IMG/VR virus record: IMGVR_UViG_3300044647_002005
Coordinates: 1 to 42,072 of that record
Origin: a virus
Direction: 5' to 3' (one strand)
DNA: 42,072 nucleotides
The translations under genes and the position numbers were made by a program. Numbering within the stretch: the stretch's first letter is position 1; the number at the start of each line of letters is the position of its first letter. This document shows, piece after piece, positions 4,553 through 31,143 of the stretch. The notes below the pieces were generated by a model that saw nothing but the letters and a program-made list of their open reading frames with translations, had not been told where the DNA came from and made no database searches.

Positions 4553-7500
4553 ATGTATAACGAAATTCAATTCAAAGCAAACTCTGGTCAGGTAAACATT
4601 GACCAGGCCGAGGGCATTGTTGAATGCTTCGTTGCTGGAATTGGGAACAAGGACTCCGTAGGCGACATTGTTCTGTCAGGTGCATTTTCAAAGAGCCTCA
4701 TGCGTCGCAAACCGCGTGTCGTTTGGGGCCACAACTGGAACGACCCAATCGGGAAAGTTCTGGAAATTTACGAAGTCCCACCTAGCGACCCGCGCCTTCC
4801 AGCAAAAATGAAGATGGCTGGGATTGGTGGATTGTTTGCAAAAGTTCAATTCAATCTCAACTCGGACAAGGGGCGAGAGGCTTTTGCCAATGTTGCGTTC
4901 TTTGGGGTTGAGCAGGAGTGGTCAATCGGATACAAGACGCTTGATGCAATTTTTGACAACACCCGTCAAGCAAACTTATTGCGAGAAGTTGAACTTTACG
5001 AAGTTTCCCCAGTTCTTCATGGGGCCAATCAACTTACTGGAACAATCTCCGTTAAGAGTGATGAAGAGAAGATGCACATGATGGGTGGCATGGGGATGCC
5101 TAACACAATTGTTATTGCACGACCGCAGGAAGAAGGCCCACAAGAGCCTCGCGACCCATTCGCAATGGGTATCGCTCAGCCGCTATCTGACGACCGTCGC
5201 GCAGGACTACAGCAAGAACTGGTCAGCCGAACTGGCGGACCGATTCATGTTCTTAAAGCAACAGAGTCATCTGTCGTTTTCATGAAGCCAGGTCGCGGAC
5301 TATTTAGGCTCAGTTACTACTTTGACGGCGAGCAATTCATGTTTGGCAAACCAGAGCCAATGGGTCAGAAGCCTGTTGCCGTGGTCCCAAGTGTTGGGCC
5401 GAAGCCAAATCTGTCTGGCCCGACATCAATTCCAGGAGTTAGTGGAAAGCCAAATATCCCATCTCCAGCAATGCAGTATGCGTCTCCGCCTCCAACAGGA
5501 GATGCAAGTTTGGTATTCGGAGAAGTAAGGCCAAAAGGCACTGAAAAATCGCTTGAAGACGAAATTGACATGCTGCTTGAAAAGATTGACAACGACGAAA
5601 AAATGTCAATCAAGTCTGATGCAATTGAAAAACTCAACTCAGTAGTACGAACTCTTCAAGAAATTATTGGAGTTGAGACAACTGAAAAATCTGAACTCCT
5701 GATTGAATGCGCCCCAGAACACGCTTTTGAGACAAAGCAACTCCTTGACCCAGTTTTTGAATATCATCAAGTTGAAACGCTTGTTACGGAAAACGGAATC
5801 TTAATTACATCGGACATTGACCTTGACGCATATCAGGCAATTGAGACTGCAACAAAGTCTTTGTTTGGGCGTATCGGGCGCAGAATAGGGCCTGGTGGTC
5901 CAAAAAAAGGTAGGCGCGCAACGCGCGCTCTCACCCAGATAGACGGAGTCCTAGACCCGAAAAAGCGTCGCGATGTTGATGGCGACGGCATGATTTTTGA
6001 TGGAACTTGGCGTGAAATGCCAGCCCCAGCAAAGCCATCATTCGCAACTGGACTTCAATCCAGAAAACCAAATACCGTTCCAGCCGCTGAAACGAAGTTA
6101 AATGTTCGCCTAACTCGCACGCAAGCATCAAAAATGCTTGATGGAATTAAAAAACTTTCTGGAAGCGAATCAGAAGGACCATTGAAGAACCTTCTTGACG
6201 AGATTGAGCGTCGCAAATACATTGGCGACCCAGATATTTCACCAAGCATGCTTGACTCAGCACTTGAAGAAATAGGAAAGCGAAAAGCAAACGGAGAGTC
6301 CGTTGATAAGTTCCTTGACGACGCATTAAATGAAATGAAAACCACTGGAGCGTTTGGTCAGAACAATGCGCGTAGTCGCGCTGGCAGGCCAACTGGTGCT
6401 GCTGCTCCGAAGAAAGAGGGGCAACAGAATTTTGCTGGTTACTCTTTTGAAAAGGTAAAGCCAGAGGGCTGGGACTTAATGTCTCTTGAAGATAAAGAAA
6501 ATTGGCTTGCCACATCATCATCTACGGCAAAATTGGCAGCGCGAGATAGGGACAGAATTCTTGCGCAGGTTTACGAGGAAATGGATAGGCGTGACCGCAG
6601 GGCTCAGGCGCGTCAACGGGCTGCTGGTCGCGCCGCGTCGGCACCTTCACCAAAGCCAGAACCAAAGCCAGAACCAAAGCCATCAGCAAAACCAGAGCCG
6701 AAGCCATCGGCACAAGACGATGACGAACTCACCATAGACCAGGCTCTATTGCGTAAAAATTACGCTTCCCTGACCGATGACGAAAAAGAAGAAGTTGATG
6801 CCTACGAGGCTGGGGTGATTGGCAAATTGACCGAACGCCTTCGCGCCACCAATGCCAAACTTAACGAGACTGGAAAGAATGATGTCGCCGAACTGGTGGA
6901 CGGAACTCTCTCCGAGATTGACAATGCCCTTGGTGATGGAGCAACCGAAGAAGCCATAAATGACGCGCAAGACGCCATTGCAAAACTCCTCAAAGAACTG
7001 AACACTTCGTATGGTCCAAAGCCAAAGAAGCCAAAGGCAGAGGAGGAGGGTCAAGAAGTAAAGCCAGACAAGATTTCTAGCGCTGCTGGAAAGTTTAGGA
7101 GTTATTTCACGACCGTTAACGAGGCCCTAGACAAGATGCTGGCGCGCCGTGCATCGTCAGCCGACAGAGGGGACGAGGGAGAACTGGACCTTTCCGAGCG
7201 GGCGGTATCTGCTCGCGTTCGTGGTTTTGATGAAACAGACTTGCCAAGCAAGTTTGAAAACTCACTCAAGTTTGCTCGCTCCTATCAGGATGCCCGTTCA
7301 CGCCGTAAGAGTTCTGGCGCTGGCATGGTTAGTGCAAATAGGACCCCAAGCGGGCTTCGTTCCGACAGGGGCAAGGTTGAACCACGCACAGAAATCATCG
7401 CCGAAGCCACATGGTGGAAGAAAATTGAAGATTCGCTTCCAAAAGAAATACGAGAATCAAAAGACAAGGCAACAACAGATGCCCTCACTAGATTGTCCAC

Positions 7501-7747: not shown

Positions 7748-7904
7748 TTTGACAAGAAATCGCGATTAAAGCGATAGTTCCGCCATATAACACGCGGTGA
7801 AGTATAATTTGTCAAATAGAAATTTTCATATAACGAGGTCAGTGGTGTTGTCGCGTCAGCGACTTCATTTCTTTCTGCGGCAACACTTCTAAGGAGTTAG
7901 TAAA
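7748..7904 (+). promoter_or_regulatory. promoter and structured leader upstream of the zinc-ribbon/DUF6582-like gene
   Basis: TTGACA (7749-7754) and GATAGT (7773-7778) with an 18-nt spacer form a good sigma-70-type promoter. A second consensus TATAAT is at 7803-7808. TTTGACAA at 7748-7755 and TTGTCAAA at 7809-7816 are an inverted pair flanking both. Downstream, GTGTTGTCGC (7845-7854) can pair with GCGGCAACAC (7877-7886). Alternatively GTCGC (7850-7854) can pair with GCGAC (7859-7863). The two foldings exclude each other. AAGGAG at 7891-7896 is a strong ribosome site. Confidence 0.55.
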
Positions 7905-9170
7905 ATGGGCGAGTACGGCGATAAAGCAGTAGTAAAGATTGATGCTGACGGTTCGGTGCTCAAGTGCGCTAAATCTCTTGGTGGCGATGAGTGTGGATTC
8001 ACTCCTGGCGCAAAAGTTTGCGGTAAGTGTGGAGCAATGCCTGTTCAAATGAAGGCAATGATGGAAGAAGACGAAGAAGAAATGCCAGAAGAGGAAATGA
8101 CTGAGGACATTTCTTCAGAAGAGGAAATGCCTGCTCCTGCGCCGAAGAAGAAGCCAGTTGTGGCAATGGCAGAAGAGGAAGAAGAAGAGGAAGAAGAGGA
8201 AGAAGAAGAGCCAGCATCAAATGACATGGAAGAAATGCGTACTCGTCGTCTTGCCTCAATGGGGATGAAGTCTGCAGATGTTGGTCGCACTGGATACCTC
8301 TGCGCCGTTGACCGCAAGGTTTACCCAGGCGGAACTGGAGTATGCGATGACTGCCCAGGTGGTTGTGTTTCCGAAAAGGGAATGCCAGGGCTGCTTCATG
8401 TTGAAGGTCTTGCAGAAGACATGTTTGAAGGAAAAGTTCTTGATTCTGGATACTCGGCAGAAGCAGACATGTTTGTTGTTGATGTTCAGGCAAAAGACGG
8501 TCGCGCAGTAGAAGTTTTCGTTGATGGAACAAACGGCGAAGTTCTTGGTTGGCACAAACTTGACCAAGATGCGTTTGAGCAAAAGTCACTTCTTGATGAA
8601 ATGATGCTCATTGACTTCAACGAAGCAGCAGCGATTGCAGTTAAGTCAATTGAGGGAAGCGTAGTTGCAGTAGAGCCAGATGTGTTTGAAGGCTACGACG
8701 CATACGCAGTTGAAATTGATGGCGTTGACGGCAAGTCTTACGATGTGTTCGTTGCTCTTGACGGTGAGGTACTTGGTTACGACAAGTACGAACCAGAAGA
8801 AGCAGAGGACATTGAGGCAGAAGCAGCAGAGATTGCTCTTAAGCGTGCATTCACGGAAGACCAGCGCAACGCAATGGCCGAAGAAGGAAATGCCCTTCCA
8901 GATGGTTCATACCCAATCGCCAGCAAGGCCGATTTGCAGAATGCAATTTCCGCATACGGACGGGCAAAGGACAAGGATGCGGCAAAGCGTCACATCATGA
9001 AGCGTGCAAAAGAACTTGGTGCTGAAACCATGATTCCAGCGAACTGGGTTGCTGGTGGCGCAGAAATGAGCAAGAAAGATGACGACAGCATTGAAGTCGC
9101 TGACAACAGTTTCATGGCATCACTGCTTGAGTTTGAATTGCTCAATGCCGAAGAAGATAACAACCTCTAA
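7905..9170 (+). CDS. acidic virion-associated protein: zinc ribbon, PepSY-like repeats, DUF6582-like domain
   Basis: This encodes 421 residues. Near the N-terminus CAKSLGGDEC and CGKCG form a probable zinc ribbon. Residues 50-105 are very acidic, including a run of glutamates (8172-8211). A second Cys cluster follows (CAVDRKVYPGGTGVCDDCPGGC). Two similar ~60-residue units, each ending in a V-F-V-(D/A)-x-x-GEVLG strand (around residues 160-220 and 235-295), look like PepSY-type folds. The C-terminal part (about 313-375, containing ALPDGSYPIAS and YGRAKDKDAAKRHIMKRAKE) matches the DUF6582 pattern common in phage head proteins. Its own promoter and strong ribosome site suggest high expression. 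A scaffold or capsid-associated role is plausible but inferred. Confidence 0.75.
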   Translation: MGEYGDKAVVKIDADGSVLKCAKSLGGDECGFTPGAKVCGKCGAMPVQMKAMMEEDEEEMPEEEMTEDISSEEEMPAPAPKKKPVVAMAEEEEEEEEEEEEEPASNDMEEMRTRRLASMGMKSADVGRTGYLCAVDRKVYPGGTGVCDDCPGGCVSEKGMPGLLHVEGLAEDMFEGKVLDSGYSAEADMFVVDVQAKDGRAVEVFVDGTNGEVLGWHKLDQDAFEQKSLLDEMMLIDFNEAAAIAVKSIEGSVVAVEPDVFEGYDAYAVEIDGVDGKSYDVFVALDGEVLGYDKYEPEEAEDIEAEAAEIALKRAFTEDQRNAMAEEGNALPDGSYPIASKADLQNAISAYGRAKDKDAAKRHIMKRAKELGAETMIPANWVAGGAEMSKKDDDSIEVADNSFMASLLEFELLNAEEDNNL

Positions 9171-9202
9171 AAAGAATCAACAACAGATTCTAGAAATTGG
9201 AG

Positions 9203-9216
9203 CCCGTCATGACGGG
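9203..9216 (+). promoter_or_regulatory. perfect palindrome centred on a start codon
   Basis: CCCGTCATGACGGG is a perfect 14-nt palindrome and the ATG of the next gene (9209-9211) is at its centre. In mRNA it can form a 4-bp stem with TCATGA in the loop, exposing or masking the start. GGAG (9199-9202) sits just upstream. Confidence 0.6.
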
Positions 9217-12200
9217 TAAATCACTTCGCCTTACACGCATGCTTGTAAGCAAGAAGTTTGCACCGCCAAAATCAGCAGACGAACGCGCTCTTGAATTCAT
9301 CGCATCTAAAAAAGAGATTGTTTCAAAGTCCTTTGACGCCGAACTTTCGGTCAAGGCACTAGGGAAAAATACTAGCAAGAAGCCTCCATCTGCGAACAAC
9401 AAAGAAAAGCGCAAGAAGGGCAAAGGGCCGAATACTAGATTTGGCCTTGCGGTTTTTGACCCTAACGCAAAAAAGAAAACAGGGCAGATTTTCATTCCCT
9501 GGATTGCCCAGTGGGGACGGACTGGAAGTGATGAGCATCCGAACTTTGGTTGGATAGACCCCATTAAGGAACTAAAGCCAAACCAAACAAACGCCCGAAT
9601 GTTTCAGGCCAGCGAGAAAAAGAAAAATGGAGTCAGCGCTACATACTCAGATGTTGTGCGCAATCCACGGACTGGCGAGTTTAATACGAAGTCTCTAGGA
9701 CGAACAATTGGTCAATTGGTTCCTGGCGGAGAAATAGCGACAAGAGCAGCATCTGCCCTTGGCCTTTGGCAGGACTCTGCTGGAAAGTTGCGTTGCCCTC
9801 CTGGCGTTCCTGCTGCCAACCAATTCACCGACTCATCTGGCTCAAACTGTTTTGACATCACCGAAGGAATGGCAAGCCGACTTTTAAGGTCTGCAATAAA
9901 TCAAGGCATGTCGCTGCTTGATGACATGTCACTCCTTAATGAGGCAATTTCTTTTGAGCGAGTAACACCGATAGACGGAAGAACTGCAAGATACCCAGAT
10001 AGACCTGAATACAGTCTTGCGGACATGGTTCGCGGGCTTGCAAGTGCAAAGCCGCGCAGAGAATTCACAAACGGCGAGCGAACTGTTTGGCTGCCCGCTG
10101 ATGATATGGACCTTATCACGGAAGCCGCAATTGATGGCTTTAGGCCAACTGGTCGCGTTGATACACCTGCATCCACTACGCCAATTATAAAAGTTGGTGC
10201 GGTTCCAGAGGAGCCAAAGTCGGCAGACGACCTAATCGGTCCTGACTCATTGCCGATTTCACGAATTGATGCCAAGTCTTTTGCCGAGGAAGTTCGTGCT
10301 CGCGTCCTTGATGCACACCCAGACATTACGCCAGAAGAACTTGACAGAATAGTCATGCTTGCCGAGCAGAAAGCACGAATGACAGACGCCATGAATGGGC
10401 GAATTGATGTTGCGCTCCAATTGATGAAGGACCTGGGAATTGATGTAGACCCAAGTAGCCCACAAAGCGTTAGCGCTGGATTTATGCGAGCAATGGAAGA
10501 ACTCCGCAAGTCTGGGTGGGATATCAACTTTGAGAACACGCTGTGGACAGATGTTGACAGGACTCTCTCACCAGAAGAGCAAGTTGCACAACACCACGCG
10601 AATGTTTTGAACATGATTGTTCAGAACATGGTCAAGGACCCAGAGGGAACGCTTGAGGCGCGAGATGCTTCTGTGGTGAAAAGACTATGGGCTGGTCTAA
10701 GCAAAAAGAAAAAAGAAGAAGCGGTTCGCAATGCGACTATGGCGTACCTCAATGGAGATGCTCCAGAAACACTAAAAACGGACCTTGAGAGAGCGCTTCA
10801 CCGCAACATGGCTCACAGAATGAACAACTACCTTGCTGCTGAGCATGGATTTATGTTGGGCATGCTCGCAGAGCACAAGATGAATCCAGGGAAAGCGGAA
10901 TTGCTTAAGCGCGTTGGCGTGATGGACCCATTGGACCCACGCAACGAGGGTCTTGAGGCAATGGTTATCCCAGACGCTGACGGACAAATATCCATGCTGT
11001 GGAACCCGCTTGGAATGATTCTTGCCGACAATCCACCAGCACCAAGGAACCCAAAAGCATGGCGCCTATACGGAACCAGTGGCAGCGGTCTTGAAGTATC
11101 AAAAATTGCAGAGGTAAAGAAGACCGTTGATTCAGCGACAAAGATGGCAATGCTCAACGACATGTTGGGTGGTGATGTTTTTGATGCAATAAAAACCCAT
11201 GGCTACATGGGCGATATTGCAAAGAAACACGGAGGCTCAATCGGACATGCAATGTTTGTTTTCCAGCATGAATTGACGCATGCACAGCAATACGCGATGG
11301 TCATGTATATGATTTCTCACGACAAAAAAGGTCGTCGCATAACCACTCTTTCAAATGTTGAACTTGCCAAACTTGCAGATGACATAATCACAGGTAATTT
11401 CCCTGGCTTGACTATGGAAATGCTTTTTGCTGATGAAAAGGCAATGGCTGCCGTTCATGGAAAAGTCGGCGTGGTCATGGACTCAATGGTCAGAGAGGGG
11501 ATGTCTGGTATCTACCCAAGGATGCACCTTGAAACAATGCACATCCTCAACAAGATAATGGGTCTTAAAGATGACGACCGACCAGGTTTTATCTCTGACC
11601 TTGAAGATAGATTTGCAACCCTTCGTGAGCGTGCTGGATTTGATAAAGACCTAACACCAGATGAACAGATGGAACTCAAAATCCTGAATCACGCAATCGG
11701 CACAATACGCGGAATTGATGAATTTGATGACGAGCAATTACAAAATTCGGTCAGGACTCAGCGTGCTTTGATGTTTGCAGAGTCGGCAGCAGAATTGAAT
11801 GCCGCACGAGCAATGGGGATAATTGACCCAACTGACGAAAAAGTAACTGCCGCACTTGCCCACCTAGATGCCCCAATGGACAAGGTTGCGAAAGAAGTTG
11901 TAGCCGTAAAAGAATCAAAAAAGCGTAAGTGGCTTGAGCGTTTGGTTAGTGCTGTTGAATTATACGACGAGTTAAAAAACTCAGAGTTTTCGCTTGAGCA
12001 AGCATCTTCTGGTGACGAGCCACTAACAATAAATCTTGTTCGCAGGAAGCGCTGGCGCGAAGGTTCCGAGATGTTCGTATCTGAATCAGTAGCAGAATTG
12101 TTTACAGTGTCTCTTGAGGAGAGCAGCGGGATACCTCTCGGGTTTTCAAAACTTACACCAGAAGGCGAGTACGAACCATTACGAGCAGGGGACATTCGCG

Positions 12201-14932: not shown

Positions 14933-15228
14933 TGAAAATAAGAATTGACAACGGACAGAATAATTCTGATTGGATTAAAACAAATGCTTTTGATTTTCCT
15001 GGAGTTAAAACGCTAAAGCAGTTTTACAAAATTTTTAATATCCCAGAAAAAGAACCAGAAAAATCCATAGCGATGCGACACCTTGCGACAATGAATTGGG
15101 TGGATGCCGCTCCAGAAGAGATTCGTCAAGAGTTGATGAAATACGCACCAGGCACACCAGAGCCATGGGAAAGCGTGTCAAACTATAGGTTGAGCCGTCG
15201 CCTAAAAGAGCAGGATGATAAGAAGTGA
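14932..15228 (+). CDS. small protein of unknown function coupled to the ADP-ribosyltransferase gene
   Basis: This encodes 98 residues. The ATG overlaps the preceding stop (TAATG) and its own stop overlaps the next start (GTGA), so it is translated as part of a tight cluster. It is soluble and mixed-charge with no Cys motif or membrane segment. Visible pieces include DFPGVKTLKQFYKIFNIPE and APEEIRQELMKYAPG. Its position directly after a predicted ADP-ribosyltransferase makes a chaperone or immunity partner conceivable, but nothing in the sequence demonstrates that. Confidence 0.65.
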   Translation: MKIRIDNGQNNSDWIKTNAFDFPGVKTLKQFYKIFNIPEKEPEKSIAMRHLATMNWVDAAPEEIRQELMKYAPGTPEPWESVSNYRLSRRLKEQDDKK

Positions 15229-20135: not shown

Positions 20136-20150
20136 CGGGTGGATTTTTAA

Positions 20151-22196
20151 ATGAATGAATTAATTACGGAAATCAAGACACTTGAATTTGCAAGTGCCTG
20201 CTGCCCAAACTCCATGATGACCAAGGTGCGCGTTGTATTCGCCGCAGAGAAAACCGCACCGAATAATGTGATGCGCTCGCTTCCAGCAAATCGCGGGGAA
20301 CTGATTACATTCAAAGCGCTGTTGAAGCGTAACGGTCGTTCTCGTGAGTACGAAGTAAAACGAGTTGGCTCAATTGGTTCAAGCAACCCACTTCTACAGG
20401 GCATTCAGGCTGCTGGCTCAATGGCTCTTCCTGGTGACTCAAGCATTCTAAGAAGCCCGATACGAAGCACTGTTTTTGGCGCACTCACCCCAGGTATGCC
20501 AAGCATCCCAGGAATCCCAGGACGAGGACTTGGTGGACGAGACAGGACATATCACTGCCCAGAGGGCTACCAGTACGGCGGAAGATTTACCGATAAGAAG
20601 TTCTCTAACTGTGGAGCAAAACTTTTTGACATTCCTGGACCGCTCGGTCTTGCTATTGCCGCAATACGAGCAGTACGAAACGCAATCAAACCAGGTCCAC
20701 AAACACAGAGCGAAGCACTGGGGGCTGGACAGTACCCAGAAAGCATCGTTGATTCTCGCGCACCACAGATTCCAAGGGTTTCACTTTCAAACCCGCAAAA
20801 ACTAAAACTTGAGGTAGACAAATTAGTCACTCCTCTAGGAAAGCAATCTTCACCAGTAGCGCGAATGGTGCGACGAGATGGGTTCGTTCTTGAGCCAGTC
20901 GTACCCGCTTCGGTTCTGAGAACAGTTCCAGACAATAGGAACATGGAGGGCGCAACATACATCTCCAACCATGCGACACCAGACACGATTGGCAAAGATG
21001 AACTAGGACTTCTTTCAAACACTGGGATTCAAAGTTTGAAATATGTTCTTCCAGGCGGCTCGGTGCTCACTCTTGAAAAGAAACGACCGCTAACCGTAGG
21101 CGAGCGAAGGAAACTTGGTCGCACGGTAAATGCTGCGATTGAATCGTCAAACGACAAAGACCCAGCATCACGACTGAAGATGGTTGCGACTGAAACTGGT
21201 GATGGAATCGGATATAGCGAAAAATTTGTCGGTATTTCAAACCCTAACGAGATTGGCCCAGACGGCAAAGAGCGTTGGGCATCTACTGCATTCAAGAAGC
21301 AGTCTGGCAAGCCGACGGAACAGCGCGAAGCGCAACCAGTACAGGCTGCTGCCGCATCGCAGACAGACATTGGAACAGTTGATGGAGCGATTAACCACAT
21401 CAAGAATGGTGGAAGTCTTGCCGATATCTCACCAGATATCCTTCAGGAAGTCCTCAAGAAAATGCGTGAAATCAAAACGCAAAAAATTAACGACCGTCAG
21501 TCGCTTGTGTCAATGCCAAACGGTGACAAACTGCTGCTGAACTCGTCGGTTAATAATTTTGACCACATTGGACAGCGTTTTGCCTCAGCAGTTCAAGAGC
21601 ACCTTGGAATCAAGGCTCCAGACATCTTCTTCGTTGGCGTTGGCGATAAGCGAAATTACCTTGCACAGGACGCGGAAACAGCAATTCGCGGAGCGAAAAT
21701 TGACAGAAACTCCAAGTTTGCTGATTCCAACCCGATGGATGTGACCAGGTTGATGTTTGCGGACATTCTCACTGACACGAGGAACCGAAATATAGGAACA
21801 ATTGCGATGCTTTCTGCGAAAGACAACAAGTACATCCTTGCCACATCAAACCCTGGCTCTGGACTTACTGGTCTTGATGAAATATCAATTACAAAACGCA
21901 CTGAGATGGGTATTCAGGAATTGCTCAACCCAGGTGAGTCTTCTATCTATATAAATTATTTCCAAACCCTTAAAGAACTACAGCGGTCTCAGTACCAGCA
22001 ATTTATTGCTACACTTATTCAGAGGGCAAGAGCCTTTAATTTCAGCAACTTTAAGTCAAACCTTTACAAAGACGGAAAATTGTCTCAAGGCGAAAAAATT
22101 CACTTGAACATCCTTGAGAAATTGTTTAATCAACGCCTTGGTCGTTTGACAAATGCACGAGATTCAATCTACGAAATTGTGAGCGCTAAGAAATGA
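20151..22196 (+). CDS. multidomain protein with CPxG/FTD/SNC motif and degenerate HipA/PI-kinase-like C-terminus
   Basis: This encodes 681 residues. An N-terminal ~75-residue WYL/SH3-like basic region (YEVKRVG) is followed by a Pro-rich stretch with RGLGGR. The Cys motif YHCPEGYQYGGRFTDKKFSNC (C136 to ~C155) is shared with the 9209 gene, then comes a hydrophobic segment LAIAAIRAVRNAIK. In the C-terminal domain MFADILTDTRNRNIG (M535-G549) resembles the catalytic D-x4-N loop of HipA/PI3K-like kinases (D542, N547). The usual D-x-G of the metal-binding loop seems replaced by TSNPGSG, so it may be inactive. The stop overlaps the next start (ATGA), pairing it with a gene whose kinase-like domain looks intact. 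Kinase kinship is moderate-confidence inference. Confidence 0.65.
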   Translation: MNELITEIKTLEFASACCPNSMMTKVRVVFAAEKTAPNNVMRSLPANRGELITFKALLKRNGRSREYEVKRVGSIGSSNPLLQGIQAAGSMALPGDSSILRSPIRSTVFGALTPGMPSIPGIPGRGLGGRDRTYHCPEGYQYGGRFTDKKFSNCGAKLFDIPGPLGLAIAAIRAVRNAIKPGPQTQSEALGAGQYPESIVDSRAPQIPRVSLSNPQKLKLEVDKLVTPLGKQSSPVARMVRRDGFVLEPVVPASVLRTVPDNRNMEGATYISNHATPDTIGKDELGLLSNTGIQSLKYVLPGGSVLTLEKKRPLTVGERRKLGRTVNAAIESSNDKDPASRLKMVATETGDGIGYSEKFVGISNPNEIGPDGKERWASTAFKKQSGKPTEQREAQPVQAAAASQTDIGTVDGAINHIKNGGSLADISPDILQEVLKKMREIKTQKINDRQSLVSMPNGDKLLLNSSVNNFDHIGQRFASAVQEHLGIKAPDIFFVGVGDKRNYLAQDAETAIRGAKIDRNSKFADSNPMDVTRLMFADILTDTRNRNIGTIAMLSAKDNKYILATSNPGSGLTGLDEISITKRTEMGIQELLNPGESSIYINYFQTLKELQRSQYQQFIATLIQRARAFNFSNFKSNLYKDGKLSQGEKIHLNILEKLFNQRLGRLTNARDSIYEIVSAKK

Positions 22197-25100
22197 AGCA
22201 ATACGCAATCCTAAAAGACGCAATCCGAAATGAGAACTTTGGAATAGTTGTCAAATCAGATGAAGCAACAAAGTTTTTTGGATTCACTGAACACGGCACC
22301 GAGTGGTCAAAGTGGGCGAATAGCGTAAAAAGCGCTGAATCAGTGCTACCAGACGGCATCACTGTTGGTGAATTCAAGAACCTCACCGAGGACATTTTGG
22401 CCAAGTTTGACATTGACTCAACAGAAGTAGAAGTCAAGTCTGAAGTACTCACCGAGTCACGCAGGTTTAACAAGTTTGTTGAATCAAAATCACTCAATAG
22501 CGCTTCAAAGTTGGTGAGCATTTCCGACACCCGATTGAGTGATTGCGGCGTACATAATTTCACAGCCGTTAACTTTAAGGCACGCTTGTTCCGCGGCGAA
22601 CAGGTAAGAGGAGAATTGGCGCTTAAGTCAAGGTTCGGACAACTTGCGTTCAATCATGAAATCAGCCGCTTTAACCCACGCCCTAATTCTGAAACAAAGA
22701 GTATTGAATTTGCAAATATCCGTAAAAAAATTAACTCTGGTGCAGAGCGCCGATTCGGCCAGCAGATTGTAAAGTCAATCAACAACTCAATATCTGAAGT
22801 AAAAGTTGAAGATGACTGGATGAAGCGTCGCGGCAAGGTTGGTGTCAACACTGCTGAAATCATTGAGTTCCACGAAAAAGGTCTAGGCCGTGCAATCGGT
22901 CGCGCAATTTTCGGTCGTCGCGGTCGCGGTCGTGGTATGGGTGGTAATGCGAGCAGATTTATTTCTGGTGTTCTAGACCCGAGCAAGCGACGAGATGTTG
23001 ACGGCGACGGAATGATTTTTGATGGTACATGGCGCGAAATGCCAGACCCAACAAGATTCAAACCAGGTGCGAGAGTTCCAAACAGAACCCCAGGAATGGG
23101 TGGCGACATTTTTAATACCAGAAAGCCATGGCGACCAGGTCAAGACACTGGCGCACCAGCGATTGTTGACGATATCCCAGGCATGGATGACAATTCATTA
23201 ATTGATGAATTTAATTATCTTGAAAACAGAATTTACCCAATCAATGGTGATGTGACCACTCCGCGTCAGGACAAAGAACGCGCTACGGCAATCAGGCGAG
23301 AATTGCGCAAACGAGGCATCCGTCAGAGAGACATTGAGGCAAGAGACCCTATCGCAAAGATGGGGGCACGACTCTTTGGCCAAGAGCAGTCAGGACTTCG
23401 CTCGCAGCGCGGTGACAAGAAACCAAATGTAACTCCAAAAGACAAGCCTGCAGAAAAGCCAAAAGACCCTTCAAAGATGACGAAGGAAGAAATTGACGAC
23501 CTTCTTTATGACTTAAGGACAGACTGGAAACAGCGCAAGCGCTCAATGGAAGCAGACCTCATGGAGGACATGTTCTATTGGGAAGATGAAGAAATTGCTA
23601 AGCGTTTCATGGACGAGTACGGAATGACAAAGCGCGAGGCAATGAAGGAAGTTGACAACTGGCGCGACCTTTACGACGAATACACGCAGGCGCAGATGGA
23701 CTACGACGAGCGCCGTGCCGAACTTCTTGATGCAAAAGAAAAAGCACCATTTGAAGACGATGTTGAAGAGGGCGGTAAAGAGCCACAACAGATGCGCGGG
23801 CTCGGTTCTGCAAAGGATAAAGTAAGCGACAACATTATTGACGAACTCCTTGATAGGGCTGATGGGGCAAACGACGGAATCACTCCATTGCTAGAAAAAC
23901 TCAAGAAGAACAAGTTGTCAGATGATGAAAAATCCAACCTTCTTGAAATGCTCAATGACGAATTCAACAACGGCGACCTTGCTGGCGACGAAAGACTTAA
24001 CAAGTTAATTAAGAAAATCAAAAAGGGACCACAAGACCAGAGCGGTCCAGACCTTGAAGGCCTTCGCAGGCAGTTCGGAAGTCGTGGTTTAGGCTCATCA
24101 AATGAAAACAGTGAAGTAATTGACGAACTACTAGAGAGCGCATCTGGCGCAAACGATTCAATAACGCCAAAGTTGCAAAAACTAAAAATCTGGCCTCGCC
24201 TTGACGACAACGAAAAAGCAGACATTATTGAAGAACTCACAAACGAGTACAACAATGGCGAATTAGCCGATGACCCGCGCCTGAAGAAACTTATTGATGA
24301 CCTTAAGGGCGGTGGAAGCACCAGTCGTGGGCTTTCTTCACGGCGGGTTAGGACGGTTGATGACGCCAAGAAAATAATGCGCGATAATTTCAATAGCGCA
24401 CAGGCTGGCGGTGCAGACCTTGACTCAGGAATTCGCGCTGTTGCAAGAGGTCTTGGACTTGATTCTGATACTGAAGACCAACTATCGCAACTCATCTACG
24501 ATGGTGGTCCAGGCGATTCTTTAATTAGTGAAATTGACGCAACAGATAAAGAAAAATCAATCTTGAGAGAAGCGGTTCTTGAGTTTGCATATTTGGATGG
24601 TGGTGCAAAACGCGGTCCTGTTTCAACTTCCGAGGATGCACGACAAATAATGCGTGACAGTTTCAGTAGCGCGCAGGCTGGCGGTGCAGATTTGGATTCT
24701 GGTATTCGTGCTGTTGCACGGGGGCTCGGCTTACCCAAAGACGCTGAAGACAAACTTTCTCAGTTGATTTATGATGGTGGTCCAGGGGACTCCTTAATTA
24801 GCGAAATCGCTAGAGACAAAGAAGAACGAAACATCCTGAAGGACGCTGTTCTTGAGTTTGCTTATTTAGATGCTGGAAAAGAAAGAGGCCCAATCTCCGA
24901 GAATGAAGCCAAAAAGATAATCCGAGATAGTTTTGAAAGCGCTCGGTCTGGTGGCGCTGATTTGGATTCTGGTATTCGCTCTGTTGCGCGAGGACTTGGA
25001 TTGCCCAAGGATGCAGAGGATAAACTTTCGCAACTAATTTACGACGGTGGCCCAGGGGATTCTCTAATTGGTGAAATTGCTAGAGACGACGAAGAACGAG

Positions 25101-28100
25101 ACATCCTAAAGGAAGCGGTTCTTGAGTTTGCAAGATTGGATGGTGGTAACGACGATATTGAGTCCGCCAATGATGCACGGAGAATAATTCGCGAAAGTTT
25201 TAATAGTTCCATGGCTGGAGGTGCTGACCGAGATACTGGCATTCGTCGCATCGCCAGAAGTCTTGGGATTCGTCCTGCCGATGAAGAAAAACTTGCAGAA
25301 ATAGTTAATGAAACCAGTGGTCCAGGTGATTCAACCATTATGGAAATCACGAATGACCCAGACAAGCGAAACATATTAAAAGAAGCAATTCTTGAGCAAG
25401 CAAGACTTGATGCTGGTGAAAGAAGGGGGCTTGCATCGCGCCGTCAGCGTAACGCTGTTCCACAGAACATGAGTTCGCGTCGTGCAACAGCAACGACCGA
25501 GCGAGCAGCAGCACCGCGAGGACTTGCATCTGACCGACCAAAGCCAAAGGTGAAGAAGAAAACCAGCAACGCTGTGCCTGGTGTTGACGCAGTTGACGAA
25601 AAAGACGGACGGTTCTGGAGCACGCTGACGCCAGAAGAGCGACAAAAGGCTCAAGCGGCGCTAGAAAAACACAAGTTGGAAATGGAAAAGAAACTCAAGG
25701 GTCGTTACGCAACATGGTGGCGTGGACAGGTTCGCGGAGCGCAGAAACAAGGTGTTCGCGGTGGAAGATTTGCGCCACGAGACGAAGACGATTCATTGAA
25801 CTTCGGCGATATCACAGAAATGCAGCGCCAACTTGATATTGCCATTGCAAATGGAACCGTATCCAGTGTTGCTGTTGATAAAGAAGGAAAGCCAATAATA
25901 AACAAAGATGGCACTCCAAAGCAATCAATGGCAGATGTATATCAAAAAGAAATTGACACTTTGAGCCTTCTTTTGAATATGGAAAAGGCAAAAGATTATT
26001 CAAAACTTGAACATCTGCATCCAATTCAGAAAAAAATTGTTCTTGAAGCAATCGGTAAAAAGGGTGGCGACAAGGAATTCAAGGGTGGCACAAAATCTTC
26101 ATACTTCGGACGCGGCGGTGGTGTAACACGCACAGCAGCAGATGTGACAGCAGCGGCAGAAGCAGCAAAAGACAAGAAGAAAGGTGATGCCGGAACAATC
26201 AAGTTCCGTCAGCGCATTCTTCGTGTTAATCCAGAGCGTGCGAGAAGGCGTGAACTACGAAAGAACCGAATCTCAAACAAGCCTGGACGACGAGGAGAAA
26301 TCCTTGACCCAACACTTGCGGCAAAGCAAAAGAAGTTGCGCGCGCAAGCAAAGATTCGCGGAATTAAGAGCAAGTTCAAGGGCAAGCGAGATGCTGCACA
26401 GGTGACAAAGCAGATTGAAGGACAGAGGGCAGAACTGCATCCATTGACATTTAATCCAGATGGAAGCATCAAGATGACCCCAGCATTCCCAGACATGCTT
26501 GCATTCTTGTCTGGCTCGCTACACGCGAACAAGAAAAAGGGTGAAAAAGCAGAGCAAAAGGTATTTGACAGACTGCTTGCCGACCTTTGGGAAAATACTG
26601 GTTTTGCACAAAAGCCGATTCTTATTAGGCCAGAAGAAATTGACGAACTCATCAAGGCTGGATGGCAACCAATCGTTCGCGGAACTGGTGGAGAAAAAGT
26701 AAACAGTGAAGGTTATGTTGAACAGTTCCTAACATCTGAAGGACGATTTATCCCTGGTCAAGGCGCACGCGCTTACGGTGTTGGAGAGTACTTCACATTC
26801 CCAGGAGAGTCGCGATGGGACAGTGGTTACACTGGAGGAGAAAACGCACGACACACGATTCTTGCGCTTGTGCCTCCTACGGCGAATATCGTTTCGCAAT
26901 CTGAACTGAGCGGTGAAGTTCGTAAACTCAAGGACCACCTAAATAAAATCAGCGAACGAGTTGGTGAAGTGGGTGGAAGAGATGCTGCAGCAGCCATGTC
27001 AACACCAGAGTTGGTCAAGGAGTTGCGCGAGGCCGTTGGCGACATGTCTGACGATACACGCGCATCGCAAATAATCAAGGGCATGATTGACATGCTTGAA
27101 GAAAAAGACAACGCTGGAGAGGACACCGCTCAATTGCGAGGCCAGGTTGTTGACGGCCTTGACTACATGAAGCGAATTGCTGACCACAACGACATCGGAC
27201 ATGTTGCTCCAATGCTTGGAGTTGACGGACATGAGCCAGATGGTGATTCTGGCGTATTCCTGCTTCACAACCGTGGTGCTGTTGCCGCTGTTCAGCGTCC
27301 ACTCACCCGTAAAGAAGGAAAAGAACTTGGACAGTTCAAGAAGTCGCTATGGAAGTCGTGGGGACGAGACAAAGTGACAAGCCCTATGCCAGAGTCTGCT
27401 CCCGCTGCATCAAAAGCACCAAAGGCACCAAAGGCACCGAAGGCAAGCAAGCCAGCAACGACAAACGCATACAGCAAGGTTGATGTGAGCGGATGGAAAA
27501 AAGTTGGTGGACAGAGGGGCTCAAACCCAGGCGGAACATTTGCTGACTCTGCTGGAGTTGAGCATTACATAAAGACGCCAAGCACTCCGCTTCATGCAGA
27601 AAACGAAAGCCTTGCGTCAACGCTCTACAACTTGGTTGGAGTAAACGCCGCTGATGTTCAGGTTGGCGATGATAACGGACAGGTTAAGACTGTTTCAAAA
27701 ATTGTTCAAGGCGCACGGTCTGCAACATCTAGCGACAAGAAGCAAATGCAAAGCGCGTTTGTTGCCGACGCATGGCTTGGGAACTGGGATGCGGTCTTGA
27801 ATGACAACACACTTATTGACTCATCTGGAAAACCAGTAAAGATTGATGTCGGTGGCTCAATGTTGTTCAGGGCGCGTGGCGGAGCGAAGGGCGCGCAATT
27901 TGGCGATACGGTAGGAGAAATTGACACCCTTCGTCAGCGAAACTCGGTCTATGCAGATATTACTGACGCACAGATTAGGGAGCAAGTAAAAGCCCTTAAA
28001 TCAGTCAGCGCAGACATGATTAAAGCCCAAGTAAAGGCGATTCTAACCGATTCTGCGCAAGCCACAAAACTTGCTGATACCCTTATTGCTCGTCGCCAAG

Positions 28101-28123
28101 ACCTTATTAACAGGTATGGCTGA
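22193..28123 (+). CDS. giant polyprotein: EF module, tandem repeats, ADP-ribosyltransferase-like and HipA/PI-kinase-like domains
   Basis: This encodes 1,976 residues. In order: an N-terminal ~220-residue domain; the shared module (residues 230-286, loop D268-T279); a charged helical region; two ~90-residue repeats each opening with RGLGS (535, 631); and four tandem ~90-residue repeats (722-1081). Then RGLASRR and RGLASDR linkers, a basic region with VRGGRFAPR, and an ADP-ribosyltransferase-like domain (PIVRGTGG with R1496, then AYGVGEYFTF about 1528). The kinase fold comes last: HYIKTP (K1794), LGNWDAVLNDN (N1864, D1866, N1872), and KIDVGGSMLFRARG (D1885). The last two motifs match the catalytic and metal loops of HipA/PI3K-like kinases found at the ends of phage proteins. 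Both terminal domains would modify host targets (NAD- and ATP-dependent). Packaging in the virion is inferred. Confidence 0.8.
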   Translation: MKQYAILKDAIRNENFGIVVKSDEATKFFGFTEHGTEWSKWANSVKSAESVLPDGITVGEFKNLTEDILAKFDIDSTEVEVKSEVLTESRRFNKFVESKSLNSASKLVSISDTRLSDCGVHNFTAVNFKARLFRGEQVRGELALKSRFGQLAFNHEISRFNPRPNSETKSIEFANIRKKINSGAERRFGQQIVKSINNSISEVKVEDDWMKRRGKVGVNTAEIIEFHEKGLGRAIGRAIFGRRGRGRGMGGNASRFISGVLDPSKRRDVDGDGMIFDGTWREMPDPTRFKPGARVPNRTPGMGGDIFNTRKPWRPGQDTGAPAIVDDIPGMDDNSLIDEFNYLENRIYPINGDVTTPRQDKERATAIRRELRKRGIRQRDIEARDPIAKMGARLFGQEQSGLRSQRGDKKPNVTPKDKPAEKPKDPSKMTKEEIDDLLYDLRTDWKQRKRSMEADLMEDMFYWEDEEIAKRFMDEYGMTKREAMKEVDNWRDLYDEYTQAQMDYDERRAELLDAKEKAPFEDDVEEGGKEPQQMRGLGSAKDKVSDNIIDELLDRADGANDGITPLLEKLKKNKLSDDEKSNLLEMLNDEFNNGDLAGDERLNKLIKKIKKGPQDQSGPDLEGLRRQFGSRGLGSSNENSEVIDELLESASGANDSITPKLQKLKIWPRLDDNEKADIIEELTNEYNNGELADDPRLKKLIDDLKGGGSTSRGLSSRRVRTVDDAKKIMRDNFNSAQAGGADLDSGIRAVARGLGLDSDTEDQLSQLIYDGGPGDSLISEIDATDKEKSILREAVLEFAYLDGGAKRGPVSTSEDARQIMRDSFSSAQAGGADLDSGIRAVARGLGLPKDAEDKLSQLIYDGGPGDSLISEIARDKEERNILKDAVLEFAYLDAGKERGPISENEAKKIIRDSFESARSGGADLDSGIRSVARGLGLPKDAEDKLSQLIYDGGPGDSLIGEIARDDEERDILKEAVLEFARLDGGNDDIESANDARRIIRESFNSSMAGGADRDTGIRRIARSLGIRPADEEKLAEIVNETSGPGDSTIMEITNDPDKRNILKEAILEQARLDAGERRGLASRRQRNAVPQNMSSRRATATTERAAAPRGLASDRPKPKVKKKTSNAVPGVDAVDEKDGRFWSTLTPEERQKAQAALEKHKLEMEKKLKGRYATWWRGQVRGAQKQGVRGGRFAPRDEDDSLNFGDITEMQRQLDIAIANGTVSSVAVDKEGKPIINKDGTPKQSMADVYQKEIDTLSLLLNMEKAKDYSKLEHLHPIQKKIVLEAIGKKGGDKEFKGGTKSSYFGRGGGVTRTAADVTAAAEAAKDKKKGDAGTIKFRQRILRVNPERARRRELRKNRISNKPGRRGEILDPTLAAKQKKLRAQAKIRGIKSKFKGKRDAAQVTKQIEGQRAELHPLTFNPDGSIKMTPAFPDMLAFLSGSLHANKKKGEKAEQKVFDRLLADLWENTGFAQKPILIRPEEIDELIKAGWQPIVRGTGGEKVNSEGYVEQFLTSEGRFIPGQGARAYGVGEYFTFPGESRWDSGYTGGENARHTILALVPPTANIVSQSELSGEVRKLKDHLNKISERVGEVGGRDAAAAMSTPELVKELREAVGDMSDDTRASQIIKGMIDMLEEKDNAGEDTAQLRGQVVDGLDYMKRIADHNDIGHVAPMLGVDGHEPDGDSGVFLLHNRGAVAAVQRPLTRKEGKELGQFKKSLWKSWGRDKVTSPMPESAPAASKAPKAPKAPKASKPATTNAYSKVDVSGWKKVGGQRGSNPGGTFADSAGVEHYIKTPSTPLHAENESLASTLYNLVGVNAADVQVGDDNGQVKTVSKIVQGARSATSSDKKQMQSAFVADAWLGNWDAVLNDNTLIDSSGKPVKIDVGGSMLFRARGGAKGAQFGDTVGEIDTLRQRNSVYADITDAQIREQVKALKSVSADMIKAQVKAILTDSAQATKLADTLIARRQDLINRYG
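22880..23050 (+). other. shared EF-hand-like module, copy C
   Basis: GLGRAIGRAIFGRRGRGRG leads to ISGVLDPSKRRD, the loop DVDGDGMIFDGT and WREMPDP. The loop is identical to copy A. Confidence 0.85.
23795..24325 (+). repeat. two ~90-residue protein repeats, each opening with RGLGS
   Basis: Residues 535-630 and 631-711 of the 22193 product align. Each has RGLGS, then IIDELLDRADGAND (or VIDELLESASGAND), (G/S)ITP-x-L-x-KLK, L-x-D-(D/N)EK, and a (D/T)NE-(F/Y)-NNG-(D/E)-LA-(G/D)-D tail. Confidence 0.8.
24356..25438 (+). repeat. four tandem ~90-residue protein repeats
   Basis: The units begin near residues 722, 813, 903 and 992 of the 22193 product (period 89-91 residues). Shared features are DA(K/R)-x-I-(M/I)-R, GGAD-x-D-(S/T)GIR-x-(V/I)AR-(G/S)LG, a GPGDS motif, and I-L-(R/K)-(E/D)-A-(V/I)-LE-x-A-x-LD. 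The first three are close copies and the fourth is diverged (RPADEEKLAEIVNETS). Confidence 0.9.
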
Positions 28124-28143
28124 GGAAATAGGAGATAGTTAAC

Positions 28144-28536: not shown

Positions 28537-28545
28537 GTTTAGGTA

Positions 28546-31143
28546 ATGGCTGATGTAGAAAAATCAGAGACAAACAGCAAAGCGTTTGCCCTTCGTATTG
28601 CGCAGAATATTGGCTGCACTGGCGCGCATAAAAAAGATGGCAAGTGGATGCCATGTTCAACCATGGAAGAATTGCAAAAAATCTCCACAAGTGCTGAACC
28701 CAAAAGGAAAACTGCACTAGTAGAAGTTGAAGAAAGATTTAAAAAGCGAAGCCGAAAAGGCAAGAAGCGCCAATGGGAAAATCTTGGACAAAGAGGCGTC
28801 GCTGGAATTGACGCGATGGAAAGCGGCGGGATTGTTTCTGCCCCAATAGTTTCTGTTAAAGCAGGAATACCAGGTCTTGCACCACGAGATAGCGACGATG
28901 ATGTTTACAACGAAATTGAATCAGCAAGAAAGCGTTCAGTTCGCTTAGGTTGCATCGGGGTAAGACGACTTGTTTCTCAAAGCGGACGAACCGTATGGAT
29001 GCCATGCACCACTAATACTGATTACGCACGACTTGCTGGAACCACCGCTCTAGGGAGAAGGCATCAGCGTCAAGCAGCAAACTTGGCAATTAGAAAAATT
29101 GTTAGCGAGCAACTTAAGAACCCGCGTCGCAAAAAATCATTATTTGATGAAATGTACGAAGAAAAAGGTCTCGGTCGCGCAATCGGTCGCGCAGTCGGTT
29201 CTGGTTCAAGACGAGGCAAAATCCGTCGCGCCATTGAAGTCATTGACGGAATACTTGACCCACGACTAAGGCGAGATGTTGACGGAGACGGTTTCATCTT
29301 TGACGGAACATCAAGAGAAATGCCAGACCCAACTCGTGCTATTCCAGATACTGGCGAAGGACTCACATCAATGCGTCGTTCAGAGAACAGACTTTCCGAT
29401 TACCGAGATAGAGGCGTAGAGGCGTACGACCCAACAAAGCCAAGGAAGCCAAGCAAGCCGACAAGAGTTAACCCATCGGACATTTCTGTTGGTGGAAACT
29501 TGAAAGCAAGAGAAATTTTGCGTTCCGACAGATTGCGCAATAGGAGCCGACAAGACCAGGCAACCATGCTTGGTGTTTCTGTTGATGTTATTGAGCAGAT
29601 GGAAAAGCCAGACGCAACAATTGACCCATACGCAGCAGACAGACTTGCTGATGCACTAAACCTTCACCCAACTGCAATTTGGGGCGATGATTGGCTGAAG
29701 CCAGATGTTACTGAAGAAGCCGCTCCGAAAAGAACACGCAGAATGCGCGAACTTGATGATAGGGATAGGCAAATCCTCAAGATGCGTGATGAAGGTAGAA
29801 CGCTTGACGAAATAGGAAAAGAATTAGGGATTACAAAAACTCGCGTAAACCAACTTCTCAAACGAGCAATTGAATCAAACTCGCGTGAATTTGATAAGGG
29901 TTCAAGGAAGCCAAATACAATTCCAACCAGAGTTGCGAAATCATCTGGAATGGTTAAGCGTGACGCTACTGGAAAAGTAATCATTGAAAAAGATGTGCGC
30001 AAGGAAGTATTTGACAAAACAGTTGAAAGTCTCAAAAAAATTGGAATGTCAGACGATGAGATTGACATTTTGCTGGGTGGAAAACGAAATGCCAATGTGA
30101 CACCAGAGTCGGCAAACGCTCCATCGGTGTTAATGCTTGACAATCCAATGACTGGTCTAAGAAGCGCTCGCAAAAAGAGCATCCCACCATCTGAATGGCC
30201 AGAGAGCGAAAAGAAGCATTATCTTAACTGGGCAAATGCACGACCAAGTTTTGTCGTTCCTTACAGCCTTGTTGTCAAGTACAACAAAGATAAGTTTTTG
30301 TCCGATAAGGACTGGAGACTCCTAAAGCAGTTTTACGACCGCTACGGTGCAAACTCTCGTTCAAGGAATGTGACCCCTATGGGTCTCCGTTCAACATCAA
30401 CATACACTGGAACGCCAAATGTTGGTGCGAAGAGAATGGGGCAAATTATTCTTGGTCGCGTGCAATCAAAGTTCAAGGGTGACAGGCCAGGACAGCGAAA
30501 GCATCACGCAATTATTGGCGCTCCAGGAATGGGCAAGACAAGCCTTTACGACTTTCTTTCGCGAACAGCGATAATCCCTGGTGACTCAGAAGCAGCCCAT
30601 ATTGACCCAGACTTCGTGAAACAGGGAATGGAAGGGTATAACGGAGGCGCTGGTGCTGGGAACATCCATAGAGAATCAGCAATGGCGGCAATGCATATCT
30701 ACAGGGACGCCGTGAAAGAACAGATGGATGTCGTAACCGAGGGAACTGGTAAACGCCTTATGGACTACCTCAATCTGGCTAAGGGGTACGAGATGGTTGG
30801 GCATGCGGCATGGATTCCTCCGTCTGGTGCAAAAGAAAGAATTCGCAAGCGAAAACTAGAAGATGGGCGAGAAATAGCCGAATATATCGTTGACCATATT
30901 GCGGATGTTTCGTACGACTTGGTCGCTCGTCACCTGCGGAACGGCGAAATGAGCAGTTTCTACCTCTGGGATACCGATGTTCCAAAAGGTGCTGCGCCGA
31001 AATTGATTGCAAAGGTGGAGGGCGGCGTTTTCGTTGTCAACGACGAGAACAAATTCAAATCCTGGTCAACTGGTGGTCGCGGTGGACAAACTGGCGACAA
31101 AAATTTGTCTTACTTCAAGAAAAAGTACGCGAAATCACAATAA
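28546..31143 (+). CDS. multidomain protein: Cys motifs, EF module, two helix-turn-helix segments, zeta-toxin-like P-loop kinase
   Basis: This encodes 865 residues. The N-terminus has two related Cys motifs, IGCTGAHKKDGKWMPCST (C24, C37) and LGCIGVRRLVSQ...WMPCTT (C136, C154). The shared EF module follows (residues 208-262, loop D244-T255). An XRE-type helix-turn-helix lies at about 321-385 (RQDQATMLGVSVDVIEQME), and a sigma-region-4-like one at about 400-443 (RTLDEIGKELGITKTRVNQL). Linkers TGLRSAR and MGLRSTS precede the kinase. The C-terminal domain has Walker A GAPGMGKT (658-665, K664), HIDPDFVK (D687, D689) and EGTGKR (732-737), the pattern of zeta-toxin/chloramphenicol-phosphotransferase-like kinases. 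Zeta toxins phosphorylate UDP-sugars for cell-wall synthesis. The target here is unknown and no epsilon-like antitoxin is visible nearby. Confidence 0.8.
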   Translation: MADVEKSETNSKAFALRIAQNIGCTGAHKKDGKWMPCSTMEELQKISTSAEPKRKTALVEVEERFKKRSRKGKKRQWENLGQRGVAGIDAMESGGIVSAPIVSVKAGIPGLAPRDSDDDVYNEIESARKRSVRLGCIGVRRLVSQSGRTVWMPCTTNTDYARLAGTTALGRRHQRQAANLAIRKIVSEQLKNPRRKKSLFDEMYEEKGLGRAIGRAVGSGSRRGKIRRAIEVIDGILDPRLRRDVDGDGFIFDGTSREMPDPTRAIPDTGEGLTSMRRSENRLSDYRDRGVEAYDPTKPRKPSKPTRVNPSDISVGGNLKAREILRSDRLRNRSRQDQATMLGVSVDVIEQMEKPDATIDPYAADRLADALNLHPTAIWGDDWLKPDVTEEAAPKRTRRMRELDDRDRQILKMRDEGRTLDEIGKELGITKTRVNQLLKRAIESNSREFDKGSRKPNTIPTRVAKSSGMVKRDATGKVIIEKDVRKEVFDKTVESLKKIGMSDDEIDILLGGKRNANVTPESANAPSVLMLDNPMTGLRSARKKSIPPSEWPESEKKHYLNWANARPSFVVPYSLVVKYNKDKFLSDKDWRLLKQFYDRYGANSRSRNVTPMGLRSTSTYTGTPNVGAKRMGQIILGRVQSKFKGDRPGQRKHHAIIGAPGMGKTSLYDFLSRTAIIPGDSEAAHIDPDFVKQGMEGYNGGAGAGNIHRESAMAAMHIYRDAVKEQMDVVTEGTGKRLMDYLNLAKGYEMVGHAAWIPPSGAKERIRKRKLEDGREIAEYIVDHIADVSYDLVARHLRNGEMSSFYLWDTDVPKGAAPKLIAKVEGGVFVVNDENKFKSWSTGGRGGQTGDKNLSYFKKKYAKSQ
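29167..29331 (+). other. shared EF-hand-like module, copy D
   Basis: GLGRAIGRAVGSGSRRGK leads to IDGILDPRLRRD, the loop DVDGDGFIFDGT and SREMPDP. It is the most diverged copy (F for M in the loop, S for W after it). Confidence 0.85.

Follow-up and report, generated by a model that had tools for sequence, protein, structure and literature searches.

What do the very large genes between the prohead protease and the major capsid protein of an uncultured phage encode, and how might their products be used? The genes are found in the 42 kb IMG/VR virus record IMGVR_UViG_3300044647_002005 (42,072 nucleotides; the whole stretch analysed is called the window), which is from an uncultured tailed phage. 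Its head gene block is on the plus strand, in the order portal, S78 prohead protease, g3, g4, g5, g6, g7, g8, g9, g10, g11, g12 and major capsid. Window coordinates are on the plus strand unless stated otherwise. An earlier note on this DNA had pointed to very large in-frame genes at this place. These genes are real, and the coordinates given earlier hold. The distance of 23.5 kb named in that note applies from the end of the protease gene (4553..7747) to the start of the capsid gene (31289..32620), but from the protease start it is 26.7 kb.

With moderate confidence, we read the giant genes as head cargo of the polyvalent-protein type that would be placed in the prohead and cut at lineage-specific sites. 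A module containing the residues DGDG, or fusion to the protease in other lineages, would bring the giant protein into the prohead. A phage protease would then cut at a short motif, whose core is usually [G/R/S/T]-[L/F]-x-S, and the cut would probably be directly in front of the serine. Once released, the domains would remain in the head and be passed into the next host together with the DNA. The sites and presumably the enzyme reading them would have changed together in each phage, giving each lineage its own cutting code.

A lineage-specific linker motif

The motif GLxSx[RK] was found in 14 copies in the giant proteins of the window vs 0.4–0.6 expected from residue shuffles. It is located at residues 500 and 934 of the protease, at residues 280, 1079, 1275, 1464 and 1483 of g4, at residues 401, 536, 713, 1079 and 1110 of g10 and at residues 272 and 537 of g12, which also has GLRSTS at 613. 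A pattern-free search gave different top motifs in other lineages: GLxSxT, LRSxG, RGAxS, LxSGR, SL[SA]SG and I[ST]GxM. When the motifs were counted in contigs with more than 7,000 giant residues having a motif, the table was nearly diagonal, with 8–21 copies of the own motif and 0–3 of the others. G012, G015 and DSL-LC01 had no motif in that table. The motif is common to several proteins of a phage and differs between lineages.

For five of the first 21 contigs, the first filter yielded no top motif (G008, G012, G015, G016 and DSL-LC01). On a second look, five copies of I[ST]GxM were found in G015, as in its sister G013, and five of GLxSxT in G016, both barely above shuffles. The fragment G008 had four GLxSx[RK], the fragment G012 had three to four GLRS-type hits (below shuffles) and DSL-LC01 had none. 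A survey of 30 contigs followed from 80 loci examined, of which 15 were dropped because their contigs were already in use, and from length and redundancy filters. A top motif with the L/F-x-S core was above shuffles in 13 of the 30, and the others had none or different patterns.

Twelve further phages came from 16 chosen contigs and comprise every one of these with a protease match. Their motifs were RFSSG, GFxSR (two phages), GLSSG, GLxSG, R[LF]xSG, LGSR, RLSSG, RLxSG, LSSG (two phages) and GLRSxT, and the top motif was above shuffles in all 12. Eight of them had a motif in the 30-contig survey, where G046 was at shuffle level only and G049, G050 and G052 were without.

Local linker composition was ruled out as the cause of the motif by shuffles within 15 residues: the observed count was larger than the maximum of 300 shuffles in 27/27 contigs, with motif patterns chosen from the same data. 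The 27 contigs are not 27 independent cases because some are close relatives (the window, G009, G017 and G018). G010 and G019 represent one and the same head block, which entered this test as G010 only. A DNA-level repeat was rejected as well. The fixed motif residues use varied synonymous codons, including both serine codon boxes, and selection therefore acts on the protein. Codon use is skewed in places (serine TCT in 15/19 in G005 and serine TCA in 10/12 in G040).

Orthologous sites differ in concert, as do those of g12 near residues 275 and 620. Depending on the phage, GLTSMR, RLASST, SLRSSG, RAARSVS, RLASGG or GLASET is found at the site behind the g12 module. Tentatively, this would be a private, fast-changing cleavage code in which one virus enzyme and up to ~20 sites in several giants and one protein outside the head block switch together. 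On co-infection, related phages of different lineages would then be unable to process one another's cargo.

In the head region of G040 (L206-L207), a gene of 1,759 residues behind the capsid gene (position 34723 of the piece in reversed orientation) has five GFxSR. It is possibly further cargo or a tail protein.

Motif sites relative to domains

The motif sites avoid recognised domains. None of 75 sites in 14 proteins was inside a matched Pfam stretch (7.2 expected). This count used strict patterns and, for each Pfam family, the best-matching stretch, also where the row was weak. At 2704 in G014, within the UvrD span, there is a profile hit of low score (4.5) that is outside this strict set. 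In four further protease polyproteins, none of 59 sites was inside a Pfam stretch (10.2 expected).

Domain borders show the same arrangement. The ArdC start was 4–17 residues behind a motif site in 5/5 proteins, and RNase_T in g4 of G001, G005 and G007 was bracketed by motif sites. Three UvrD spans of ~500–700 residues each had no site by the strict pattern. In window g12, the zeta fold aligned from residue 617, directly behind the motif at 613, and all three motif sites were in model stretches with a predicted local distance difference test (pLDDT) score under 50. The layout is signal module, motif, domain, motif, domain. A linker motif repeated in this way fits a processed polyprotein whose parts would be cut free.

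The DGDG module and fusion to the prohead protease

A module of ~60 residues ending in LDPxxRRDxDGDGMIFDGTWREMPDP is present in the window protease, g6, g10 and g12, and the window copies are 58–65% identical to the g10 copy. The DGDG core is encoded at 5951..6022 in the protease (residues 467–490), at 15720..15791 in g6, at 22973..23044 in g10 and at 29254..29325 in g12. The module sits at residues 166–490 of the window proteins, away from the terminus. Its sequence presumably resembles a calcium-binding loop. No DGDG module was found in phage records (E up to 1) or in bacterial and archaeal genomes.

Module and motif are found in the same proteins: 36 of the 44 DGDG modules were in proteins with the motif, and 23 of these 36 had a motif no more than 60 residues downstream, where 6.5 were expected. 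Two giant genes distant from the head block, in G001 (3,355 amino acids, aa) and G014 (2,583 aa), start with DGDG-like modules as well and carry the motif of the same phage. The two distant giants (G001:80836-90900 and G014:155108-162856, both plus strand) have seven to eight motif copies and, by eye, HExxH; the one in G014 also has RNase_T and weak GNAT rows.

The prohead protease of the window (1,064 aa) has an S78 catalytic domain (Pfam PF04586, Peptidase_S78, residues 19–174, E 1.8e-10; PHROG 80, E 7.3e-29) and a long C-terminal extension with the DGDG module. In 11 of the 12 further contigs, the prohead-protease gene was very long (2,489–4,307 aa), and in G051 it was found as two shorter frames. 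ArdC was present in all five long protease polyproteins scanned, and UvrD also in three. The polyprotein of G014 has S78, ArdcN, MPTase-PolyVal, UvrD and a sub-threshold sigma region 4. The place of action of a prohead protease is the interior of the prohead, where cargo fused to it should then also be found. Prohead entry of the cargo is therefore plausible.

Effector domains of the giant proteins

The earlier note had listed two ADP-ribosyltransferases (ARTs), a HipA/PI-like kinase, a zeta-like kinase and two HExxH peptidase motifs. The presence of several unrelated effector chemistries is supported by profile or fold matches, although not every item stood.

Gene g12 (28546..31143; 865 aa) encodes two DUF3721-like segments, the DGDG module (residue 237), a helix-turn-helix (HTH), sigma region 4 and a C-terminal zeta-like kinase. 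HTH, sigma region 4 and zeta fold are thus combined in one polypeptide. The kinase (residues 617–846, 30394..31083) was borne out by fold comparison, with matches to zeta 1gvn (Z 16.4, root-mean-square deviation (rmsd) 3.0 over 209 residues) and PezT 2p5t (Z 15.8). Pfam Zeta_toxin was not listed for window g12, which had only AAA_33 (E 0.0028), or for the near-identical G009. It was above the cut-off in 9/50 related contigs, always in the gene that has g12 as its best match in the window. NCBIfam gave sigma-factor and HTH models for g12 and no rows for the other window proteins scanned, and PADLOC gave one weak mads_8 row only, also for g12.

Gene g10 (22193..28123; 1,976 aa) encodes the DGDG module (residue 261), repeats, a possible ART-like region (residues ~1480–1700) and a C-terminal kinase. 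In the AlphaFold2 model of its C-terminal part (mean pLDDT 70.2), residues 1756–1976 (27458..28120) matched CtkA 3akk (Z 15.1, rmsd 3.6 over 203 residues), HipT (Z 11.7) and HipA (Z 9.6–11.1). The CtkA/HipA-like fold is thereby confirmed at the level of the model, and the domain is a predicted kinase. A PDB sequence search with the profile of this C-terminus gave no match. The HipA assignment is confirmed for g10 but not for g9, where hhalign gave a probability of 23 and the C-terminus is a doubtful candidate for a second HipA-like kinase. The kinases were found over model residues ~390–611, which leaves the ART candidate of g10 unaffected. This candidate resembles an ART by eye only, had no Pfam match and is unconfirmed.

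Two side observations concern the g10 kinase domain. In DSL-LC01, a protein of 3,289 residues between portal and capsid (L052:15003-24872) shares it (40%) and is without the motif. Moreover, 86–96 kb phages of Pseudomonas, Aeromonas, Morganella, Yersinia and Enterobacter carry a kinase domain of this type, and four of the seven proteins concerned are annotated as ADP-ribosyltransferase.

Gene g4 (9197..14932; 1,911 aa) encodes an HExxH zincin-like region (residue 691) and a C-terminal DRAT-like ART (residues 1758–1857, 14468..14767). The latter was just below the Pfam DRAT cut-off (E 2e-5, 24.4 bits vs 25). The motifs YRG, SSFS and ESE, which we take to be the R-S-E residues of ADP-ribosyltransferases, were present in 4/4 intact g4 genes for which the domain was listed; G008 has an interrupted g4 frame, and its ART part is not in that listing. 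No match was found in a PDB sequence search with the g4 ART region. Judged by its sequence, the g4 C-terminus is likely an ADP-ribosyltransferase, which leaves one of the two proposed ARTs likely.

Both HExxH motifs are present. In g4, HExxH was at the same alignment position in 15/17 g4 sequences including the window, and all 17 had at least one HExxH. In g6 (15225..19037; 1,270 aa; DGDG module at residue 166, without GLxSx[RK]), HEHGH at 642 is a motif only. MPTase-PolyVal was found together with ArdcN in five relatives (E 1.5e-43 to 1.1e-37), whereas the window itself has HExxH motifs only.

In the same or same-kind genes of relatives, Pfam found ArdcN with MPTase-PolyVal, the helicase UvrD, an exonuclease of RNase T type (RNase_T), NUDIX, DnaJ, Zeta_toxin and ADPrib_exo_Tox. 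Counts were made in 50 of the 58 contigs: ArdcN was found in 31/50, Zeta_toxin in 9/50 and ADPrib_exo_Tox in 4/50, and ArdcN and Zeta_toxin were together in none. As the related contigs are fragments, such absences are weak. Delivery based on MuF was rejected, since the window giants had no Phage_Mu_F row at E up to 1.

Evidence against the cargo reading and rival explanations

Several observations weigh against reading the giants as cleaved head cargo. Packaging, cutting and delivery are inferred. The mean pLDDT of the g12 model was 54.6, which is weak overall. In the proteases of the window (1,064 aa) and G001 (1,225 aa, extension included), Pfam recognised no effector in the extension. Eight of the 44 DGDG modules were in proteins without the motif, and g6 is such a case. 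Moreover, 11 of the 12 further phages lack the module in their head blocks; only G051 had something DGDG-like in the fetched head region. It is therefore not a general targeting signal. Of the shared targeting modules proposed in the earlier note, the window has the DGDG module as a candidate, common to four giants including the protease. In the further phages without the module, much cargo is fused to the protease instead.

The motif also has its exceptions. The giant head-block gene of DSL-LC01 has the same kinase and no such motif. Conversely, a protein of ~1,600 residues outside the head block carries the motif of its own class in 7/10 cases. Its 11 own-class hits are all at residues 586–711 (local shuffles: mean 0.94, maximum 5), and mismatched motif classes gave a mean of 0.68 hits and a maximum of 2. 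The reader of the motif is therefore not limited to head cargo. The gene is on the minus strand at G001:9242-14182, G003:958-5751, G008:31958-36613 and G014:92600-97543 and in others. A role of this protein as tape measure was unconfirmed (Pfam PhageMin_Tail in 0/10 contigs, no match in phage records).

A further difficulty concerns the presumed enzyme. The S78 domain is 77–89% identical across motif classes, G013, G014 and G015 apart, and there was no class effect (87.8% within the same class vs 86.8% between classes). Such constancy is odd if S78 is the reader of the residues that change. Near the presumed mature start, the capsid proteins carry L-x-S, R-S or K-S, but the flanks of this site do not follow the motif class. 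The capsid protein was thus rejected as a co-varying substrate.

One rival explanation is that the motif is a cut-site, but that the enzyme is the zincin-like metallopeptidase of g4 (self-processing) and not S78. The HExxH kept at the same position in 15/17 g4 sequences is in line with it, and so is the motif outside the head block. The zincin region also drops sharply between motif classes where S78 and portal are about equally close: it is 52% identical within the same class and 28% between classes (35 pairs). For example, g4 601–800 is 27% identical between G010 and G005 and 52% between G010 and G002, while S78 is 89% in both pairs and the portal is about equally close. Embedded zincin peptidases have been proposed to release domains (Iyer et al., PMC5512222; this and the other cited papers were available in part, and statements on them refer to those parts). 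However, other fast segments show the same class effect (g4 1201–1400, g10 1401–1600 and the g6 N-terminus), and the effect in the zincin region may therefore be phylogeny. Class-specific divergence did not single out a reading enzyme when S78, zincin and other segments were compared.

The sites themselves would fit S78. The HK97 protease and herpesvirus assemblin cut before serine, and the usual substrate of S78 proteases includes a capsid site, which the L-x-S, R-S or K-S of the capsid proteins would provide. For SPN3US gp245, a preference for serine at P1' is described (PMC10052503). The usual core [G/R/S/T]-[L/F]-x-S recalls these sites with serine after the cut. Overall, the S78 prohead protease is the likeliest enzyme and the g4 zincin-like domain a serious rival, although cleavage by the latter in place of S78 is unlikely in our view.

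We give a still lower chance to the motif being a docking or scaffold-binding tag that holds the giants in the prohead, with no cutting there. The many motif copies per protein and phage, the co-occurrence of module and motif and an S78 domain that does not follow the motif would all suit a tag. A tag, however, would need no copy in so many joints, and the sites are at domain borders as cut-sites would be: ArdC, RNase_T and UvrD are bracketed, and zeta is directly behind a site. It is improbable that the giants serve as structural or scaffolding proteins of the late phase, which would act in the cell producing the phage or be removed at head maturation and would not be delivered: they are located in the late head block, and g8 and g9 are conserved like core structural genes, but ArdC, UvrD, zeta and ADP-ribosyltransferase chemistry has no evident scaffolding use, and the effector content varies between lineages (the ArdcN and Zeta_toxin counts above, from contigs that are fragments).

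Related contigs and neighbouring genes

Searches of IMG/VR gave 5 loci with g10 as query, 47 with the DGDG module and 341 stretches with g8, from which 80 loci were retained. Fragments apart, 31 related contigs (19 + 12) largely share the order portal – protease – g3 – g4 – (g6) – g8 – g9 – ... – capsid.

In the window, the portal protein is encoded at 2443..4455 (PHROG portal E 1.1e-61; Pfam Phage_portal E 1.2e-52). Gene g3 (7905..9170) has a PepSY domain (Pfam E 2e-6) and is conserved within the block. The same block includes the small conserved protein g8 (19500..20135) and the conserved core protein g9 (20151..22196; 681 aa). No match was found for g4, g8 and g9 at E 1e-3 in 50,697 phage records. 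The major capsid protein matched Pfam Phage_capsid (E 4.7e-48), and its closest phage relatives are Gordonia and Brevibacterium phages (~45–48%), which would make an actinobacterium a possible host.

Behind the capsid gene, g14 (33300-34619) has DUF6321 and DUF5872 domains and is followed by a small endonuclease-like protein (34619-35020; PHROG 452, E 1.5e-37). On the minus strand, a protein of 639 residues (37861-39780) resembles ribonucleotide reductase by eye only. A terminase-like large subunit, also by eye only, is at 898-2217 (minus strand) and is transcribed away from the portal.

Comparison with known systems

The group is known only from metagenomes, as the 341 IMG/VR stretches with a g8 relative. 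If the cargo reading is true, the motif lets sequence alone indicate the proteins that are loaded by a phage and the limits of each effector within them. It would also provide a natural series of enzyme–substrate pairs for studying the joint change of a protease and its sites, ten or more in number, as well as a list of enzymes against the host with likely delivery (ArdC, zeta, HipA-like, ADP-ribosyltransferase and UvrD).

The earlier note had regarded the arrangement as a new system. This was not borne out, as polyvalent proteins (PMC5512222) and the head-packaged anti-restriction set of phage P1 (PMC12810830) precede it. In the open-licence PubMed Central literature, judged by title and start of the abstract, neither a co-varying prohead cleavage motif nor a fusion of prohead protease and ArdC was found.

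Phage P1 Dar is similar in that several internal head proteins are ejected with the DNA against restriction, and the N-termini of DarA and of the capsid protein are cut by the prohead protease (PMC12810830). Unlike the giants, the Dar components are described as separate proteins, with a single N-terminal cut in DarA; a polyprotein cut at many sites by a variable code is not part of that description. T4 Alt and internal proteins and the SPN3US and phiKZ ejection proteins are likewise packaged in the head and lose propeptides to the prohead protease at a motif (PMC10052503, PMC5694885). There, N-terminal propeptides are removed (10–20 residues in T4, 20–254 in SPN3US). SPN3US cuts after AXE and phiKZ after SXE; hence, related phages can differ in their motif. 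In contrast to the motifs found here, these two end in glutamate and differ from each other at one position. MuF toxins (PMC5576092) likewise have effector domains joined to head proteins from the DNA packaging module and are proposed to be delivered by phages, but no MuF domain was listed for the window giants.

The closest precedent is given by the polyvalent proteins (Iyer et al. 2017, PMC5512222). These are very long phage proteins that join unrelated enzymes, including zincin/ArdC, ADP-ribosyltransferase and zeta-like kinase. They are encoded with virion genes, and the proposal is that they are packaged and injected and that peptidases embedded in them do the splitting. HipA is not mentioned in the text of that paper as available. 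The same features are seen here, namely unrelated domains in one polypeptide, an ArdcN/MPTase hub in relatives and a position among virion genes. The difference to the polyvalent proteins as described there is that the cargo is encoded between prohead protease and capsid and is partly fused to the protease, that one lineage has the DGDG module and that the linker motif is lineage-specific. What is new here is thus the fusion of protease and cargo in some lineages, the shared module in one and the lineage-specific linker motif in polyvalent cargo of the head block.

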